9,872 nucleotides of DNA from the NCBI GenBank assembly GCA_947178085.1, contig CAMWWS010000077.1, forward strand, positions 1-9,872. The letters run 5' to 3'. Below, in pieces: positions 42-5,731 of this stretch. The notes under the pieces are model-generated. The model made no database searches and was not told the DNA's origin. It saw only the letters and a program-made list of their open reading frames with translations. Numbering within the stretch: the stretch's first letter is position 1; every line of letters begins with the position of its first letter. The DNA is from an uncultured Lachnospiraceae bacterium. GTDB taxonomy: Bacteria; Bacillota_A; Clostridia; Lachnospirales; Lachnospiraceae. The translations under genes were made by a program, and so were the position numbers.

Positions 42-1199
42 CTATATTTCAGACACCAATGCTTCCATTTCTTCACGGTTTTTATCAATAACATAAGAAA
101 GAATAGACACGTCAGGTTCCAATACAGTAATTTCTTTCATATCCTCCAACATCTGCCTCATTTGTTTTGCTGCCATAGGCGCCCAAGAACCATTTTCCAT
201 CAAAGCAGCCGTCCTTTTCTGAAAGCCTTTGGATTTCAAGTGCATCAGGAAACTCTCCATACATGGAAACAGCCCGCCGTCATACGTCGGAGTTGCAAGC
301 ACTATCCTGTCATAGCGGAATGCATCCTCTATAATCTCCGCCATATCTTCCCTTGCAAGGTCGGACACAACAACCTTCTCTTCTCCTTTTTCCTTAAGAA
401 TCTGTGCTAGTTGTTCTGCTGCCTTTGCAGTATTGCCATGAATGGATGCATATGCTATCAGCACACCCTTATCTTCCGGTGTATAACTGCTCCAAACGTC
501 ATATTTATCAATATAATACTTGAGATTCTTATCAAGTACAGGTCCATGCAGGGGACAGATTTTATCAATATCTAATGTTGCCGCCTTTTTCAGAAGTGCC
601 TGTACCTGCGCACCATACTTACCCACGATGTTAAAGTAGTAACGTCTTGCTTCACACGCCCAGTCTCCATCATCCTCCAGCATTCCAAATCTTCCAAAGC
701 CATCCGCTGAGAACAGCACCTTCTCCTTTTGTTCATATGTAACCATAACTTCCGGCCAATGTACCATGGGAGCCATAAAGAACTGCAGTGTGTGATTTCC
801 TAGTGACAGTTCCTGTCCTTCTGCCACTACAACTTTTTTCTCTTCTATATCCAAATCAAAAAACTGGGGAAACATTGAAAATGTTCTGACATTTCCTACC
901 AGTTTCATCTGGGGGTACTCTTCAACCACTGCAGCAATACTTCCCGCATGATCCGGCTCCAAATGAGAGATTACTAGATACTCAGGAGTCTTTCCGCTTA
1001 ACTCTTTTCTCAGGTTTTCCAGCCACACTTCCGTTTTTCTGGCGTCTACCGTATCCATCAAGACAGTTTTTTCGTCCAGAATAAGATAAGAATTATATGT
1101 AACTCCTTCCGGCACCACATACTGTGACTCGAATAAATCAATATCCCTGTCTTCCACACCTACATAACGAATAGCTTCTGAAATTTCAATTACACTCAT
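42..1199 (-). CDS. Flavodiiron protein (FprA-type A flavoprotein)
   Basis: 385-residue cytoplasmic flavodiiron protein, a family that reduces O2 to water and/or NO to N2O in anaerobes using electrons from rubredoxin or a similar donor. The N-terminal metallo-beta-lactamase-like half (about 1-240) carries the diiron ligand set: HLEPDHAG gives H79, E81, D83 and H84, followed by H147 (MVHWPE), D166 (FSADGFG) and H218 (PLHGPV). The C-terminal half (about 245-385) is a flavodoxin domain beginning GVLIAYASIHGNTAKA, the FMN phosphate-binding loop. The length is that of the minimal two-domain class, with no fused rubredoxin or flavin reductase domain. The start has a modest upstream GAAAGG about 12 bases away. 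It seems monocistronic, with its own promoter at 1267-1295 and the degenerate tRNA/lipoprotein region upstream. Family assignment is firm; whether O2 or NO is preferred cannot be read from sequence. Confidence 0.96.
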   Translation of the reverse strand: MSVIEISEAIRYVGVEDRDIDLFESQYVVPEGVTYNSYLILDEKTVLMDTVDARKTEVWLENLRKELSGKTPEYLVISHLEPDHAGSIAAVVEEYPQMKLVGNVRTFSMFPQFFDLDIEEKKVVVAEGQELSLGNHTLQFFMAPMVHWPEVMVTYEQKEKVLFSADGFGRFGMLEDDGDWACEARRYYFNIVGKYGAQVQALLKKAATLDIDKICPLHGPVLDKNLKYYIDKYDVWSSYTPEDKGVLIAYASIHGNTAKAAEQLAQILKEKGEEKVVVSDLAREDMAEIIEDAFRYDRIVLATPTYDGGLFPCMESFLMHLKSKGFQKRTAALMENGSWAPMAAKQMRQMLEDMKEITVLEPDVSILSYVIDKNREEMEALVSEI

Positions 1200-1295: not shown

Positions 1296-1356
1296 GTACG
1301 GTTATAACATATTCTTCCTGCCGCGTCGCATAAATTGCAGCAGTAATAAAATACCC

Positions 1357-1463
1357 GAAGGTGCTGAAAAAATCAACACTTCCGAGTCTTAATTTATCGG
1401 TAGATAATTCTATAAATAGATAAAACGGAGAAAGAGGGATTTGAACCGTATTCTTTTTTCTCC
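1357..1463 (-). pseudogene. Degenerate tRNA-Ser remnant with relic terminator
   Basis: This is a broken second copy of the tRNA-Ser(GCU) at 2627-2714 together with its 3' flank. Positions 1417-1447 match 2618-2648 perfectly over 31 bases, covering the acceptor 3' strand, discriminator, part of the T arm and the sequence just downstream. The next bases (1448-1463) resemble the 5' end of the tRNA: they contain GTATT and the GGAGAAA acceptor strand (minus strand, 1457-1463). The copy thus looks like a tRNA-Ser that lost about 56 internal bases (equivalent to 2649-2704) and gained about 6. On the other side, 1357-1383 is an imperfect hairpin sharing the 11-mer TCAACACTTCC with the tRNA terminator. 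Allowing for a 16-base insertion at 1401-1416, the distance to the repeat is conserved within one base. It lacks D arm, anticodon arm and a paired T stem, so it is not a functional tRNA. Confidence 0.7.
1417..1447. repeat. 31-bp direct repeat, left copy (tRNA-Ser 3' end)
   Basis: Perfect 31-base match to 2618-2648, in the same orientation, beginning TAGATAAAAC and ending TTTGAACC. The two copies are 1,201 bases apart and bracket the CAP lipoprotein gene. The repeat overlaps the 3' end of the intact tRNA-Ser, the usual position of tyrosine-recombinase attachment cores, so this copy could be an att site. A decayed tandem tRNA is an alternative explanation. Confidence 0.85.
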
Positions 1464-1534
1464 GACTCCTAAAACATTGAAAAGAAAGGATTCCGTATCT
1501 CGTGTATAAAAAATGTAACTAAAGTGTAACAACC

Positions 1535-1566
1535 AAGAAAAAGAAAGCTGATACTCTCTTTTTCTT
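1535..1566 (-). terminator. Hairpin after the lipoprotein gene, likely terminator
   Basis: A 13-bp stem (1535-1547 with 1554-1566, one G-U pair in RNA) closes a 6-base loop, about 38 bases past the lipoprotein stop. In the minus-strand RNA the 3' arm is U-rich (CUUUCUUUUUCUU), but no long U run follows the stem. The stem is purine/pyrimidine-segregated and could work in either direction. It lies inside the tRNA-repeat-bracketed segment. Confidence 0.5.
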
Positions 1567-1603
1567 ATGTTAAATCCATATTTTTATTAAACTATATCTT
1601 ATA

Positions 1604-2461
1604 TTAGCTACCAAATTCAAAAGCAGTATATACCGCAATACAACCATCATCATAATGAATCACATAACTGTCTATGCCTATTTTTATATAGTGTTTTTCA
1701 GTTATATTTGCATAATGTTCTGTGCTATTGCAAAGCCAATCAAAGCCTCCATCCGCAAATAATTCATAATCCTCCTTAAAGATGACATTGGGTTCATAGT
1801 TTGCACCCATTACAATATTTTCACCATAACTAGGCATTCCAAGTGTTGAAAGAATTTCCAAGACACTTTCTCCATTTGGTCTTACATGGGTTGGACTCCA
1901 ACAATAAGATATTTCTTCTGCTCTTATATCTGCTACTTCATCTAATCTTTCATCTCTTTCAAATAAAGGAAGTCCAAGTTCAGCTCTTAATTCATTGTGT
2001 AACTCAAAGAATCTTTTATTAACAATTTCAATAATTTCAGCATCAGATATATTCATATATTTAGAATAAATTTCTTCAGGAACATAATAAATACCATTTT
2101 CTTTTTCTTTTAATCTTTTATTATATTCTTCTGTAATTTCAAGAGGAATTTCATCTATAATATCGTTTTCTTCTGCAGGAATTTTTTCAGCTATCATCTT
2201 CTGTCTTTCTTTTTTTGAAGGCATTGTATCAATGATAGGTGTTGAAGAGGCTTCTTCTATCTCTTCTTCCTCAATATGCTCTTCTAGTTGAGCTTCCACA
2301 TCTTCTACTGTTTCTTTAACTTTTTCATTTATATTTTCTAATTGAGTTCCATCTATGATATTTACATCTGCTGACACGGTAACAGGGTTGTCTTTTATAC
2401 CACACCCTGACAACATAATCAAAAATAATCCCATTAACATATAGTCAAAAGTTCTTCTCAC
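1604..2461 (-). CDS. CAP/SCP-domain lipoprotein
   Basis: 285-residue predicted lipoprotein. The N-terminus has Arg-Arg, a hydrophobic stretch and the lipobox LSGC, so Cys20 would be lipidated and the protein anchored on the outer face of the membrane. Residues about 41-80 form a very acidic, Glu-rich linker with coiled-coil character. A CAP (CRISP/antigen 5/PR-1) domain follows at about 148-283, with HNELRAELGLPLF at 155-167 and the conserved pocket residues H192 (THVRPNG), E214 (YGENI) and H249 (EHYANI). Bacterial CAP proteins are widespread on cell surfaces, but their activity is mostly unresolved. The start is GTG, supported by GGGAG nine bases upstream and by the signal peptide. The gene is far more AT-rich than its neighbours (60-base stretches near 1981-2100 are only about 20-25% GC). 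It sits alone between tRNA-Ser and a tRNA-Ser remnant, with its own promoter and terminator, which suggests acquisition. The domain call is firm, its role unknown. Confidence 0.9.
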   Translation of the reverse strand: MRRTFDYMLMGLFLIMLSGCGIKDNPVTVSADVNIIDGTQLENINEKVKETVEDVEAQLEEHIEEEEIEEASSTPIIDTMPSKKERQKMIAEKIPAEENDIIDEIPLEITEEYNKRLKEKENGIYYVPEEIYSKYMNISDAEIIEIVNKRFFELHNELRAELGLPLFERDERLDEVADIRAEEISYCWSPTHVRPNGESVLEILSTLGMPSYGENIVMGANYEPNVIFKEDYELFADGGFDWLCNSTEHYANITEKHYIKIGIDSYVIHYDDGCIAVYTAFEFGS

Positions 2462-2499
2462 GGTCTAAATCTCCCTAATAAAATATATTACTCGGGTTC

Positions 2500-2528
2500 A
2501 TTATATCATTAGCTATACTTTTACGCAA
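2500..2528 (-). promoter_or_regulatory. Predicted promoter of the CAP lipoprotein gene
   Basis: Minus-strand TTGCGT (2523-2528), a 17-base spacer and TATAAT (2500-2505), with a TG one base upstream of the -10 making an extended -10 element. The predicted start is near 2493, about 32 bases before the GTG start. It lies between the tRNA terminator and the gene, so the lipoprotein gene seems independently transcribed. Confidence 0.6.
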
Positions 2529-2570
2529 TTCAATATATTTTTAAATCGTTTATCAGTATTTGCATAGAAC

Positions 2571-2600
2571 AAAAAAGAAGTGTTGATTTTTCAACACTTC
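2571..2600 (-). terminator. Rho-independent terminator of tRNA-Ser
   Basis: A perfect 10-bp stem (2577-2586 with 2591-2600) with a 4-base loop is followed on the minus strand by six T residues (2571-2576). It starts 26 bases after the tRNA 3' end. A degenerate relative of this hairpin (1357-1383) flanks the tRNA remnant. Confidence 0.88.
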
Positions 2601-2617
2601 CACGCCTTTTCTATTGG

Positions 2618-2648
2618 TAGATAAAACGGAGAAAGAGGGATTTGAACC
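2618..2648. repeat. 31-bp direct repeat, right copy (in tRNA-Ser 3' end)
   Basis: Perfect partner of 1417-1447. It comprises 9 bases of 3' flank plus the last 22 bases of the intact tRNA-Ser (discriminator, acceptor 3' strand, T-arm 3' strand and loop). Identity stops inside the T-arm. Confidence 0.85.
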
Positions 2649-2714
2649 CTCGCGCCGCGTAAGCGACCTACACCCTTAGCAGGGGCGCCTCTTCAGCCTC
2701 TTGAGTATTTCTCC
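2627..2714 (-). tRNA. tRNA-Ser(GCU)
   Basis: 88-nucleotide class II tRNA. The acceptor stem GGAGAAA (2708-2714) pairs perfectly with TTTCTCC (2628-2634), with G as discriminator (2627). The anticodon loop is CTGCTAA, giving anticodon GCU, which reads AGC and AGU serine codons. A long variable arm typical of tRNA-Ser follows, then a T arm with GAGGG/CCCTC around TTCAAAT. CCA is not encoded and must be added after transcription. It has a near-consensus promoter and a strong terminator, so it is probably a single-gene transcript. The 3' end is duplicated in the remnant at 1417-1463. Confidence 0.97.
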
Positions 2715-2773
2715 ATAGTCTGAACTCTTCCTCTACCAATATGAAGTTATGCCTATCACACAAGGCAAATGTT

Positions 2774-2802
2774 ATTATACATAAGACCAAAATATTTGTC
2801 AA
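2774..2802 (-). promoter_or_regulatory. Near-consensus promoter of tRNA-Ser
   Basis: Minus-strand TTGACA (2797-2802) and TATAAT (2774-2779), both perfect consensus hexamers, separated by exactly 17 bases. The predicted start is near 2767, leaving a 5' leader of about 50 bases before the tRNA. Strength fits a stable-RNA gene. Confidence 0.88.
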
Positions 2803-2866
2803 TGCTTTTACGGTTATAATTTTCGCATAATTTTTTATTGTTAATTTTCAGGCCCTATCTTTTGTC

Positions 2867-2904
2867 AGAGGAAGTACACAGGTATACAACCCTGTCCTTC
2901 CTCT
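2867..2904 (-). terminator. Long hairpin after the pullulanase gene
   Basis: An 8-bp outer stem AGAGGAAG/CTTCCTCT (2867-2874 with 2897-2904) encloses an inner ACAGG/CCTGT pairing (2878-2882 with 2891-2895). It lies about 38 bases after the pullulanase stop. There is no clear T run on the minus-strand 3' side, so it may be a weak terminator or an mRNA 3'-end stabilising structure. Confidence 0.5.
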
Positions 2905-2942
2905 AACTTTATTAATTAATTATATAGTCTGAATAATAACTA

Positions 2943-5705
2943 TCATTTTTTCTTATTCTTGATACCTAATATACCAAAACCGGCTCCAATGCCTAATACT
3001 GCAATAATACCAATAATCAACGCAATATTTGAACTATTCCCCTCATTTGCAACAGTGTCCGGTGTCGTATCCGATGCTGTTTCAGGTGTCGTATCAGTTG
3101 TTGTGTCCGAAGGAGAAGCTTCCTCTCCATCTGCCTTTATAAGCACCATCGCTGAAATCGGTTCTACCGTTATACTGCCGCCTGTAACAGTATCCAGCAC
3201 TTCCGTTCCGGCTTTTTCACTGTTAACACAGACATTCCATGTTCCAACCGGAAGCGATACCGTTGTACCGGTTTCATTGGCATTAAATATGACAAAAAGT
3301 TCTTCCGCCGGTTCACCGCTCATACCACCCTGAATATCAAAGGCAATAACATTAGCATCTAAGCCTTCTACTGCTGTAACGGCAGCGGAAACTTCCTGTG
3401 CTGTAGTGAGACGAAGCGCCCCATGAGCCTTACGCAATGCAATCAATCCCTTATAATATTCATAAACCTGCGCATAACTGTCCTTTTCCAAATCGCTCCA
3501 CTTCAGGCAATTTATTTTATCACCGGAAGAATAGCTGTTAGAATCAAAAGTTCCATCGTCCTTCACTTTGGTACGAAGCATTTCTTCTCCTGCCTGCATG
3601 AATGGAACACCTTCTGCAGTCAAGTAAACCGCCGCTGCCAGATTATTCATTCTAATCAAGGTTGCCTCGTCGGCTTCCGGTCTGGCGGTCTGCAAATGAT
3701 CAAATAATGTCAGGTTGTCGTGGCAGGATGCATAGTTGATAGTCTGTGACGGGCTTCCACACCATGTATCCGCACCCATAAAGCAACGGCTGATAGCGCT
3801 TTCCATACCGCTTTTACCCGATGCATAGCCCATGTCTTTATCATCAAATACACTTCCTTTTAAACCATCCCTAATCGTATCATTAAAATATGCAAATTCA
3901 GGCGTGTATTTAGAATTAAGCTGTGTCGCCATGGTATATCCACTTTTGGTCAGTTCGGTCGTCATTGTCCAGCCTTCGCCGTAGAAAATAACGTCAGGAT
4001 GCTCCTTGTGAACTTCTTCAATGATTGCATTGACGGTCTCGGTATCCAGAAGTCCGACCAAATCGAAACGGAATCCGTCAATGTGATATTCGTCCGCCCA
4101 ATAGCATACAGAATCCACAATATATTTTTTTACCATGGAACGCTCGGATGCGGTATCATTTCCGCAGCCTGATCCACTGGAATAAACTCCGTTTTCATTC
4201 ACACGTGAAAAATAATCCGGTACAATCTGGTTAAAGCAGAAAGCTGAGGCGCTATATACATGATTGTAGACAACATCCATTACAACGCTTATACCATTGT
4301 CGTGGAGTGCCTTGACCGCCTGTTTCAATTCTTTAACCCTGACATCACCGTTATAAGGGTCTGTTGAATAAGAGCCTTCCGGTACGTTATAGTTTACCGG
4401 ATCATAACCCCAGTTATAAGGATTACTCTGGATATCGGTCTCATCAACTGAGCCAAAGTCATATATCGGAAGTAAATGCAGATGTGTTATTCCCAAGTCT
4501 TTAATATGATCTATGCCTGTAGAAACTCCGTCTGCCGTCTTAGTTCCGGTTTCCGTTAATCCCAAAAACTTTCCTGCATTTTCAATTCCGGAATCTTCAC
4601 CTACGGAAAGATCCCGTACATGCAGTTCATAAATAACAGCATCATTAATACTCTCTCCGGCGTGCGGATTTACATCGCCGTCCCAGCCTTCCGGATCAGT
4701 TTCGTCCAGATTGATTACCATAGCTCTTTCGCCGTTGACGCCCGTAGTCCTCGCGTACGGGTCGCATGCTTCCCTCTGCACACCGTCAACTACTACTGAA
4801 TAGGTATAATAAACGCCTCTTAAATCGCCATCCTTTTGCGCAATCCATGTTCCGTTTACATCCGGTGTCATTTCAATCTCTTCTATCAAATCATCTGCAT
4901 CGCCCTGACCTGATTCATATAGATTCAAAGTAACCGCCTCTGCGGTCGGCGCCCATACGCGGAAATTTGTTCCATTTTCAGTCCATACCGCACCCTGATC
5001 GTTGCCGGTATAAGTATACTCTTCTTCAAAAGACGCAGTAGAATAAATGCTTGGCATAGTAATATTATATTCCGTTTCTTCAAAAATAATGGTGTAGCTC
5101 TTGGAAAGGTTCAGTTCCTGTGCTAAAGTCAAAGTGTATACGAAATCCGAAGTCTCCGTCACTTCAGAAATATCAATCCCGCCTTCTTTTCCTGTAACAG
5201 AAAAGGCATCGGACGCATCTCCATCAATCTTACCTGTCAACGTAACCGTAACCGTTCCATCATCATTATATTTTGCTGTCCTAAGCTTTATTCCCGTAAC
5301 AGCGTCATCACTATATTCTTTAGTGTATCCTTCAACTCCTGACTCAACATAAATATGTACAGTTCCGGAAATCACTTCGGAAACATCAACAAACTGATCT
5401 CCATCAAAGTCTTTTGTCCAGTCTGGCTTTCGGACTATAAAGCCTATTCGAGTTGTTCCCGGACTAATTTCCCTGGTGGCAACCATGTCGCCATCTTCCT
5501 CTACGAACGGGTAGCCGGCTCCCTCTCCTCCGTCATCCCATAACCATACATCCCAATCGTCGTAATTACCATCCTCTCTGTGATAATGCAGCTTCAATGT
5601 AGGATTTTCTTCTGCATTTACTGTCGTTACATTCAAAAATGGCGCAATAAGCGGTGTAACCGCTAACATTAACGCCATTAATAACGAACCTACTTTCTTT
5701 TTCAT
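2943..5705 (-). CDS. Surface-anchored type I pullulanase (GH13)
   Basis: Extracellular alpha-1,6-debranching enzyme for pullulan, starch or glycogen branches. Residues here count from a GTG at 5717; I prefer the ATG four codons later (5705), giving 920 residues, because the GGAG is only one base from the GTG and MKKK begins a typical signal peptide (cut near NA-EENP, residue 35). Domains in order: CBM41-like module (about 38-125, LKLHYHREDGNYDDWDVWLW), a linker domain (about 138-222), CBM48 (about 240-335, FRVWAPTAEAV) and the GH13 catalytic barrel. The type I pullulanase motif YNWGYDP is at 434-440. GH13 regions: DVVYNH (481-486), GFRFDLVG with nucleophile D552, FYGEGW with acid/base E581, and SCHDN with H666/D667. 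The C-terminus has a Thr/Asp/Pro-rich spacer, one membrane helix (about 897-919) and a KNKKK tail, so the enzyme is tethered by a membrane anchor; no LPXTG motif is present. It has its own promoter. Confidence 0.96.
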   Translation of the reverse strand: MKKKVGSLLMALMLAVTPLIAPFLNVTTVNAEENPTLKLHYHREDGNYDDWDVWLWDDGGEGAGYPFVEEDGDMVATREISPGTTRIGFIVRKPDWTKDFDGDQFVDVSEVISGTVHIYVESGVEGYTKEYSDDAVTGIKLRTAKYNDDGTVTVTLTGKIDGDASDAFSVTGKEGGIDISEVTETSDFVYTLTLAQELNLSKSYTIIFEETEYNITMPSIYSTASFEEEYTYTGNDQGAVWTENGTNFRVWAPTAEAVTLNLYESGQGDADDLIEEIEMTPDVNGTWIAQKDGDLRGVYYTYSVVVDGVQREACDPYARTTGVNGERAMVINLDETDPEGWDGDVNPHAGESINDAVIYELHVRDLSVGEDSGIENAGKFLGLTETGTKTADGVSTGIDHIKDLGITHLHLLPIYDFGSVDETDIQSNPYNWGYDPVNYNVPEGSYSTDPYNGDVRVKELKQAVKALHDNGISVVMDVVYNHVYSASAFCFNQIVPDYFSRVNENGVYSSGSGCGNDTASERSMVKKYIVDSVCYWADEYHIDGFRFDLVGLLDTETVNAIIEEVHKEHPDVIFYGEGWTMTTELTKSGYTMATQLNSKYTPEFAYFNDTIRDGLKGSVFDDKDMGYASGKSGMESAISRCFMGADTWCGSPSQTINYASCHDNLTLFDHLQTARPEADEATLIRMNNLAAAVYLTAEGVPFMQAGEEMLRTKVKDDGTFDSNSYSSGDKINCLKWSDLEKDSYAQVYEYYKGLIALRKAHGALRLTTAQEVSAAVTAVEGLDANVIAFDIQGGMSGEPAEELFVIFNANETGTTVSLPVGTWNVCVNSEKAGTEVLDTVTGGSITVEPISAMVLIKADGEEASPSDTTTDTTPETASDTTPDTVANEGNSSNIALIIGIIAVLGIGAGFGILGIKNKKK

Positions 5706-5731
5706 TTCAATAACCACGCTCCTTTCTCAAT

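Follow-up and report, generated by a model that had tools for sequence, protein, structure and literature searches.

A 1.2-kb integrase-less unit with a single CAP lipoprotein gene behind tRNA-Ser(GCT) of a Lachnospiraceae genome: a putative CIME-like insertion at the T-loop

A 1201-bp unit with a single gene, for a CAP-domain lipoprotein, stands between the tRNA-Ser(GCT) gene of an uncultured Lachnospiraceae bacterium and the native downstream flank of that tRNA. The unit is bounded by an exact 31-bp repeat of the tRNA 3' end, is absent from the two nearest genomes, and encodes no recombinase. At a probability of about 0.5, it can be read as the product of site-specific integration at the T-loop, now without an integrase and CIME-like.

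The window, which is the whole 9,872-nucleotide (9.9-kb) stretch of DNA that was analysed, resembles a Lachnospiraceae chromosome, and the nearest named relatives of its SCP2 protein (85% identical) are labelled as belonging to that family. The minus strand carries the long genes of the window: rhomboid, SCP2, pullulanase, tRNA-Ser(GCT), the CAP lipoprotein and a flavodiiron protein. Three further genes of this strand, between SCP2 and pullulanase in order, presumably encode HIT and two fumarase-type subunits. The features of the locus are as follows.

42-1199, minus strand: flavodiiron protein gene.
1345-1416, minus strand: native downstream flank of tRNA-Ser, which holds a terminator-like hairpin of the host and was moved away by the putative insert; window 1345-1447 aligns to L008 620-529 and L009 628-529.
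1417-1447, minus strand: displaced (distal) 31-bp copy, with only the T-loop to the 3' end and no tRNA gene upstream.
1418-2618, no strand assigned: putative inserted unit, 1201 bp from the repeat spacing and from its absence in both nearest genomes; its exact ends are ambiguous within the 31-bp repeat.
1514-1530, plus strand: two TGTAAC hexamers 11 bp apart at the distal end of the insert, with a third copy inside the gene at 1998.
1535-1566, minus strand: A/T-rich hairpin of 14 pairs, two of them G-T, behind the lipoprotein gene; possible terminator (fold z -4.5; inverted repeat I3).
1604-2461, minus strand: cargo gene, a single ORF for a 285-aa lipoprotein with a low-confidence N-terminal part and a C-terminal CAP (SCP/PR-1) domain.
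2500-2528, minus strand: promoter-like TTGCGT-17-TATAAT with TG before the -10; weak, the first hexamer agreeing at 3 of 6 positions.
2568-2617, minus strand: tRNA-proximal end of the insert, of a flank type found behind tRNA genes of the genus, with a terminator hairpin at 2576-2601.
2618-2648, minus strand: tRNA-proximal 31-bp att-like repeat, from the T-loop through the acceptor 3' strand and 9 nt beyond; single copy in the empty sites (L008 and L009, 529-559).
2626-2715, minus strand: intact tRNA-Ser(GCT) gene (ARAGORN; Rfam RF00005, 51.6 bits), the putative integration target, regenerated by the insert.

The first-pass annotation had described the 3' end of tRNA-Ser repeated perfectly and in the same orientation around one gene, and this arrangement was confirmed: the copies at 1417-1447 and 2618-2648 are exact, with 1201 bp from start to start. 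Among 100 windows simulated with a Markov model, the longest exact direct repeat averaged 13.2 bp and never exceeded 16 bp, as against 31 bp here. The lipoprotein gene is the sole ORF of at least 60 aa within the unit, and no integrase was found among the ORFs of the unit or among the five window proteins scanned with Pfam. Neither a relaxase nor a phage gene is left in the unit, and the earlier description of a unit of about 1.2 kb with a single surface lipoprotein and no integrase is borne out.

The unit does differ in composition from its surroundings, with two qualifications. G+C content is 30.3% for 1448-2617, compared with 42.5% for 1-1199 and 43.6% for 2943-5717, and the GC3 of the lipoprotein gene is 0.179 where seven other window genes range from 0.385 to 0.441. 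Because the intergenic stretch 2716-2942 is likewise AT-rich (30.4% G+C), and because a codon-likelihood test does not mark the lipoprotein gene as aberrant (z 0.47), the difference amounts to AT bias and no more.

The same annotation had taken the repeat for the footprint of integration, and had proposed that relatives be searched for an empty site or for other or larger cargo. The empty site was found. In both of the two nearest genomes, G001 and G069, whose flanks are 86-89% identical to the window, a single 31-bp copy lies between the same pullulanase and flavodiiron neighbours (protein identities of 91% and 89% for the pullulanase, and of 92% and 91% for the flavodiiron protein, respectively). 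Window 2618-3219 aligns to 559-8 of L008 and window 2618-3180 to 559-1 of L009, and in each locus this block overlaps the block of the displaced flank in exactly 31 bp; therefore, the site is empty with one copy. The tRNA flank of G001 and G069 matches the distal side of the insert and not its proximal side. At the tRNA-Ser site in the genomes examined, other cargo, a larger island or a helper was not found. The direction of change, insertion rather than loss, is inferred from these alignments, with insertion in the lineage of the window as the simpler reading; because the three genomes are almost equidistant (longest-block identities of 88.2% for window and G001, 89.0% for window and G069, and 89.7% for G001 and G069), one loss in a common ancestor of G001 and G069 is a possible alternative.

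The distance from the tRNA-Ser terminator to the flavodiiron gene also differs, at 27 bp in the window and about 760 bp in both empty-site genomes (L168 and L169), where it contains an ORF of roughly 200 aa on the opposite strand that looks like a membrane protein by eye. This difference suggests that the spot is prone to indels in other ways as well.

In the mechanism proposed, a circle with a tRNA-Ser 3' end would have undergone a single recombination event, at or close to the T-loop, with the tRNA-Ser(GCT) gene of the chromosome, and a tyrosine integrase is the likeliest agent. Insertion would regenerate an intact tRNA gene and set a new tRNA-type terminator behind it, and the old tRNA 3' end and the old terminator would be pushed 1.2 kb away. 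What remained between the att copies would be a single CAP lipoprotein gene without a recombinase, which is to say a CIME-type remnant, presumably immobile at present. A single crossover of this kind at the T-loop would explain all of the junctions. Loss of the putative integrase by deletion, whether after or before entry, is given about even odds, and is likelier than a naturally minimal unit moved in trans. It counts against this reading that decay is deduced from the absence of integrase, relaxase and phage genes; the anatomy of the unit favours neither the decay of a larger element nor movement in trans.

The insert has a terminator of its own at the tRNA-proximal end. A terminator scan reports the hairpin at 2576-2601 as strong and followed by a U tract, and its fold z is -3.5. 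A DNA search with the unit against 77 genomes of the genus gave eight matches in seven genomes at E <= 1e-3. The best of these, 88% over 48 bp, lies in the tRNA-proximal end and near tRNA-Lys of G030, the second lies in the same end and behind tRNA-Ser of G002, and the other six (E 5e-5 to 9e-4) are short and fall within the AT-rich gene or close to it. The perfect stem GAAGTGTTG-N2-10-CAACACTTC occurs at four places in the 77 genomes, all of them behind tRNA genes and three of the four behind tRNA-Ser: tRNA-Ser(GCT) in G024 and G072, a tRNA-Ser cut by the contig end in G002, and tRNA-Lys in G030, where the stem stands about 90 bp behind the tRNA and is separated from it by a repeat of the tRNA's own 3' end. 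The displaced terminator of the host, and those of G001 and G069, differ in sequence from the terminator of the insert. Given that the stem is found only behind tRNA genes of the genus and that the host terminators are different, the unit appears to bring a tRNA-type terminator of the genus with it, which would either have been captured by an ancestral element from the tRNA-Ser flank of a congener or have been shaped by need.

Other signals in the insert are fainter. The promoter-like site at 2500-2528 was not reported by a consensus scan, in which promoter-like sites did not outnumber those of shuffled sequence, and the hairpin at 1535-1566 was not reported by the terminator scan. The pair of TGTAAC hexamers could be integrase arm sites, a weak suggestion for which chance may also account. 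The distal end was also considered as a folded attC-like site, built on 8 bp of complementarity between insert and repeat. This was rejected, since the fold is barely stronger than that of shuffles and since the corresponding gapped pattern has ten matches in viral contigs, all ten inside tRNA genes.

The displaced copy is rare. The exact 22-bp core of the repeat is present in 53 of the 77 genus genomes, at 54 places, and in 184 of 397 family genomes. Forty of the 54 genus places were taken with up to 18 kb downstream, of which 28 reach more than 1 kb past the core and 12 end within 600 bp. No second core copy, with up to five mismatches, was found in these 40 regions downstream of tRNA-Ser, 12 of them being the short ones; contig ends this close to tRNA-Ser(GCT) could hide occupied sites by assembly breaks. 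Deduplication by flanks over L171-L240 and L247-L267 left 68 further distinct copies of the core, of which 46 are from genus genomes and 22 from family genomes; few of the family genomes with matches were sampled. Each of the 68 is preceded by GAG, as in the tRNA T-stem, and the 5' acceptor strand is in view for 66 of them, with two cut by a contig end. All are tRNA genes, and a displaced fragment was found among none. A flavodiiron gene lies behind tRNA-Ser in one of the 40 genus regions, that of G069, with G001 taken separately. A second occupied tRNA-Ser site was not found among the regions and core copies examined.

A crossover at the T-loop seems to be in use elsewhere, given that in the phage contig L155 the same core, from T-loop to 3' end but with no other part of the tRNA, stands some 80 bp away from a tyrosine integrase gene. 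A longer part of tRNA-Ser(GCT) is present in six further viral contigs, two of which, L151 and L158, have the same junction. Among the viral-contig integrases, the Pfam scan covered that of L155. It was considered as a helper in G001 and G069, where its best match is 27% identical, and no helper is named on this basis. Matches to the tyrosine-recombinase family number 15 in G001 and 8 in G069, such that enzymes for action in trans are common in genomes of this sort. Exact strings for the junction and the terminator, as marks of a resident element with the same ends, have no matches in the viral contigs. In four of the six contigs with the longer part (L152, L154, L156 and L157, from IMG/VR), the 3' half of tRNA-Ser(GCT) stands beside integrases that are related to each other, at 33-41% identity. 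They seem to form a group for which the anticodon side of this tRNA serves as the site.

Rather than decay, the unit may be a minimal cassette of att core, terminator, promoter and one lipoprotein gene that is both integrated and excised in trans by the integrase of a phage or island, an explanation that is doubtful but credible. The unit is indeed compact, with its gene alone between two hairpins. The longest contigs of the lipoprotein homologues have a median of 1.8 kb (14 lgn proteins of 18 non-self rows, the other four rows coming from another source), versus 4.5 kb for a control chromosomal gene (43 lgn-only rows among the 120 matches listed; Mann-Whitney p 0.003), but the rows are non-independent and the contig ends lie out of view. 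Short contigs are what assemblies interrupted at repeated ends near 1.2 kb would give, and the result leans weakly to cassettes, but contigs of 1.1-1.45 kb occur in the control as well (3 of 43, versus 4 of 14). Also against the cassette are the lack of a second occupied tRNA-Ser site in the set above and the result of DNA searches with the unit, which returned nothing from phage or plasmid records. It is improbable that a whole family of such one-gene CAP lipoprotein cassettes of about 1.2 kb exists, sharing the tRNA-Ser T-loop site, a tRNA-mimicking terminator that keeps the tRNA working, and full reliance on phage or island integrases in trans. In G001, three tyrosine recombinase matches lie in a row on one strand (C133, 792-3247; L295, L297 and L284), which we take to resemble recombinase-in-trio elements.

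An origin that involves no integrase would be quite improbable. By this account, a stretch of tRNA-Ser, terminator and lipoprotein gene from a congener was acquired by homologous recombination in the conserved tRNA gene, in the manner of minimal mobile elements, or a tandem duplication was followed by partial deletion. The likeness of the tRNA-proximal 50 bp of the insert to the native tRNA flank of congeners would fit a piece of donor chromosome, but recombination in the tRNA homology alone makes no displaced 3' fragment that ends exactly at the native flank. Upstream of the distal copy there is, moreover, no tRNA remnant save a short stretch complementary to the acceptor strand, and the fold of that stretch is barely stronger than that of shuffles (z -0.8 and -1.1). 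An assembly chimera, in which unit and host flanks come from different genomes within a short contig, is very improbable: the repeat length of 31 is a common assembly k-mer size and the terminator at the junction is of congener type, but a real molecule would still be needed in which a lipoprotein segment ends in a tRNA 3' fragment, and both flanks match one genomic neighbourhood at 86-89%.

The cargo protein belongs to the CAP superfamily, with a match to Pfam PF00188 at E 6e-8 (33.9 bits against a cut-off of 21.1), and scores 31 of the 171 bits of the NCBIfam YkwD cut-off. An N-terminal signal and a lipobox-like LSGC motif can be read by eye. In the predicted structure, pLDDT is at least 90 for 169 of 285 residues and below 50 for residues 9-77, and the top Foldseek matches are CAP-fold proteins (4d53, 4ifa and 1smb), among them the Borrelia outer surface protein BB0689, a Bacillus SCP-domain protein and GAPR-1. 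A protein search found six relatives beyond the protein itself at E <= 1e-3, and an alignment query found 18 at E <= 1e-15, which are 35-71% identical in the alignment and have lgn or ena as their only listed sources. Residues E182, E183, H192, E214 and H249 are invariant in all 19 aligned sequences, and we take them to fit the usual CAP cavity. The lipoprotein is inferred to have a surface function, and a role there such as phage adsorption is guesswork.

Close relatives of the lipoprotein were not found in 77 genus, 397 family and 392 order genomes at the cut-offs used. Three genus genomes match at E <= 1e-12, in the CAP domain only (best E 3e-15); 167 family genomes match at E <= 1e-8 with alignment A1, most of them across the CAP domain only; and two order genomes match at E <= 1e-20 (best E 3e-23). 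The best family match, G377 (E 1.3e-27), covers profile positions 78-289 in an ORF without a lipobox-like start. With a single-sequence query, CAP matches were found in 7 of 61 genomes at E <= 1e-3. Those matches in relatives that were viewed (the neighbourhoods of 10 stretches and 47 loci scanned for tRNAs, in overlapping sets) were set aside as other CAP proteins, since a tRNA was seen only at L159, about 2 kb from the match. Relatives in viral contigs were also sought by pattern, and none of the stretches found (59 with pattern A1 and 7 with A2) encodes one. Plasmid records hold no relatives of the lipoprotein; phage records hold one distant CAP match (34% identity across 41% of the query), from a 5-kb record that has no annotation. 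Three of six homologues weakly match one PHROG family, of phage CAP-type proteins; P0001 matches no PHROG family, and none of the six matched anti-phage defence models. By eye, the N-terminal part hardly varies among seven homologues (P0009-P0014 and P0016) and their C-terminal parts are mosaic, a pattern that would fit several recombining copies within one population.

The unit can be compared with several known systems. As described in PMC7563491 and PMC5704250, streptococcal CIMEs are att-flanked at the 3' end of a target gene and carry cargo only, with no genes for integration or transfer. The same is seen here, in that attL and attR would be represented by the 31-bp repeat with its exact empty site in two relatives, their use by a recombinase being putative, and in that the lipoprotein gene is the only ORF of at least 60 aa. 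CIMEs derive from an ICE or IME by decay and can be mobilized by accretion with such an element. Unlike the streptococcal CIMEs, the unit has a single gene, stands alone rather than in tandem with an ICE or IME, and is of putative ICE or IME descent; it retains no gene remnants of such decay, and no intact relative lies at the site in the genomes examined. By its sequence features, the unit would be CIME-like, of a kind already known and at the small end of the 1.2-13 kb given in PMC7563491 for the classical, cargo-carrying CIMEs of S. salivarius.

The ssrA islands of Dehalococcoides also show the 3' end of a tRNA-like gene as direct repeats and are inserted in the T-loop, of tmRNA, with 15 islands lacking an integration module and 16 having one, but the complete islands use a serine recombinase and stand in tandem (PMC3146451). 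The tRNA islands treated by Islander share the regenerated, intact tRNA gene and the displaced downstream 3' fragment in the same orientation; the unit differs in having no integrase and in its length of 1201 bp, below the 2-kb lower limit of that search (PMC4383910). Minimal mobile elements of Neisseria are likewise whole-gene cassettes between conserved genes without mobility genes, and two relatives of the window do have another ORF between tRNA and flavodiiron gene, but as described in PMC3898611 such elements are incorporated by homologous recombination only and are defined without tRNA repeats. The att-like repeats argue for site-specific entry. The unit has none of the phage or integrase genes of a prophage or phage satellite. 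The islands described in PMC9745183 and PMC12595487 do have an integrase.

Among the top-ranked literature on integrase-less tRNA islands, CIMEs, tRNA terminators, CAP lipoproteins on mobile elements and tycheposons, no paper on the lipoprotein cassette was found. The putative tRNA-type terminator at the tRNA-proximal end is the new detail. With a single gene, a pair of att-like copies and a substitute tRNA terminator as its whole content, the unit may serve as a clean small example of what is left of site-specific gene acquisition, or of what is enough for it. An element that separates a tRNA gene from its terminator may need to bring a terminator of the type used by the host for tRNAs. If the homologues prove to share the same ends, the unit would exemplify the movement in trans of cargo made up of one gene.

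Gene-less microCIMEs of 130-220 bp have been described in S. salivarius (PMC7563491). In contig C23 of G030, the tRNA-Lys 3' end is repeated 65 bp downstream, at 86% over 29 bp (L301, 1541-1634). An inverted 17-bp copy of the T-arm lies between these repeats and a tRNA-type terminator stands behind them, and the stretch looks like a gene-less, microCIME-like scar.
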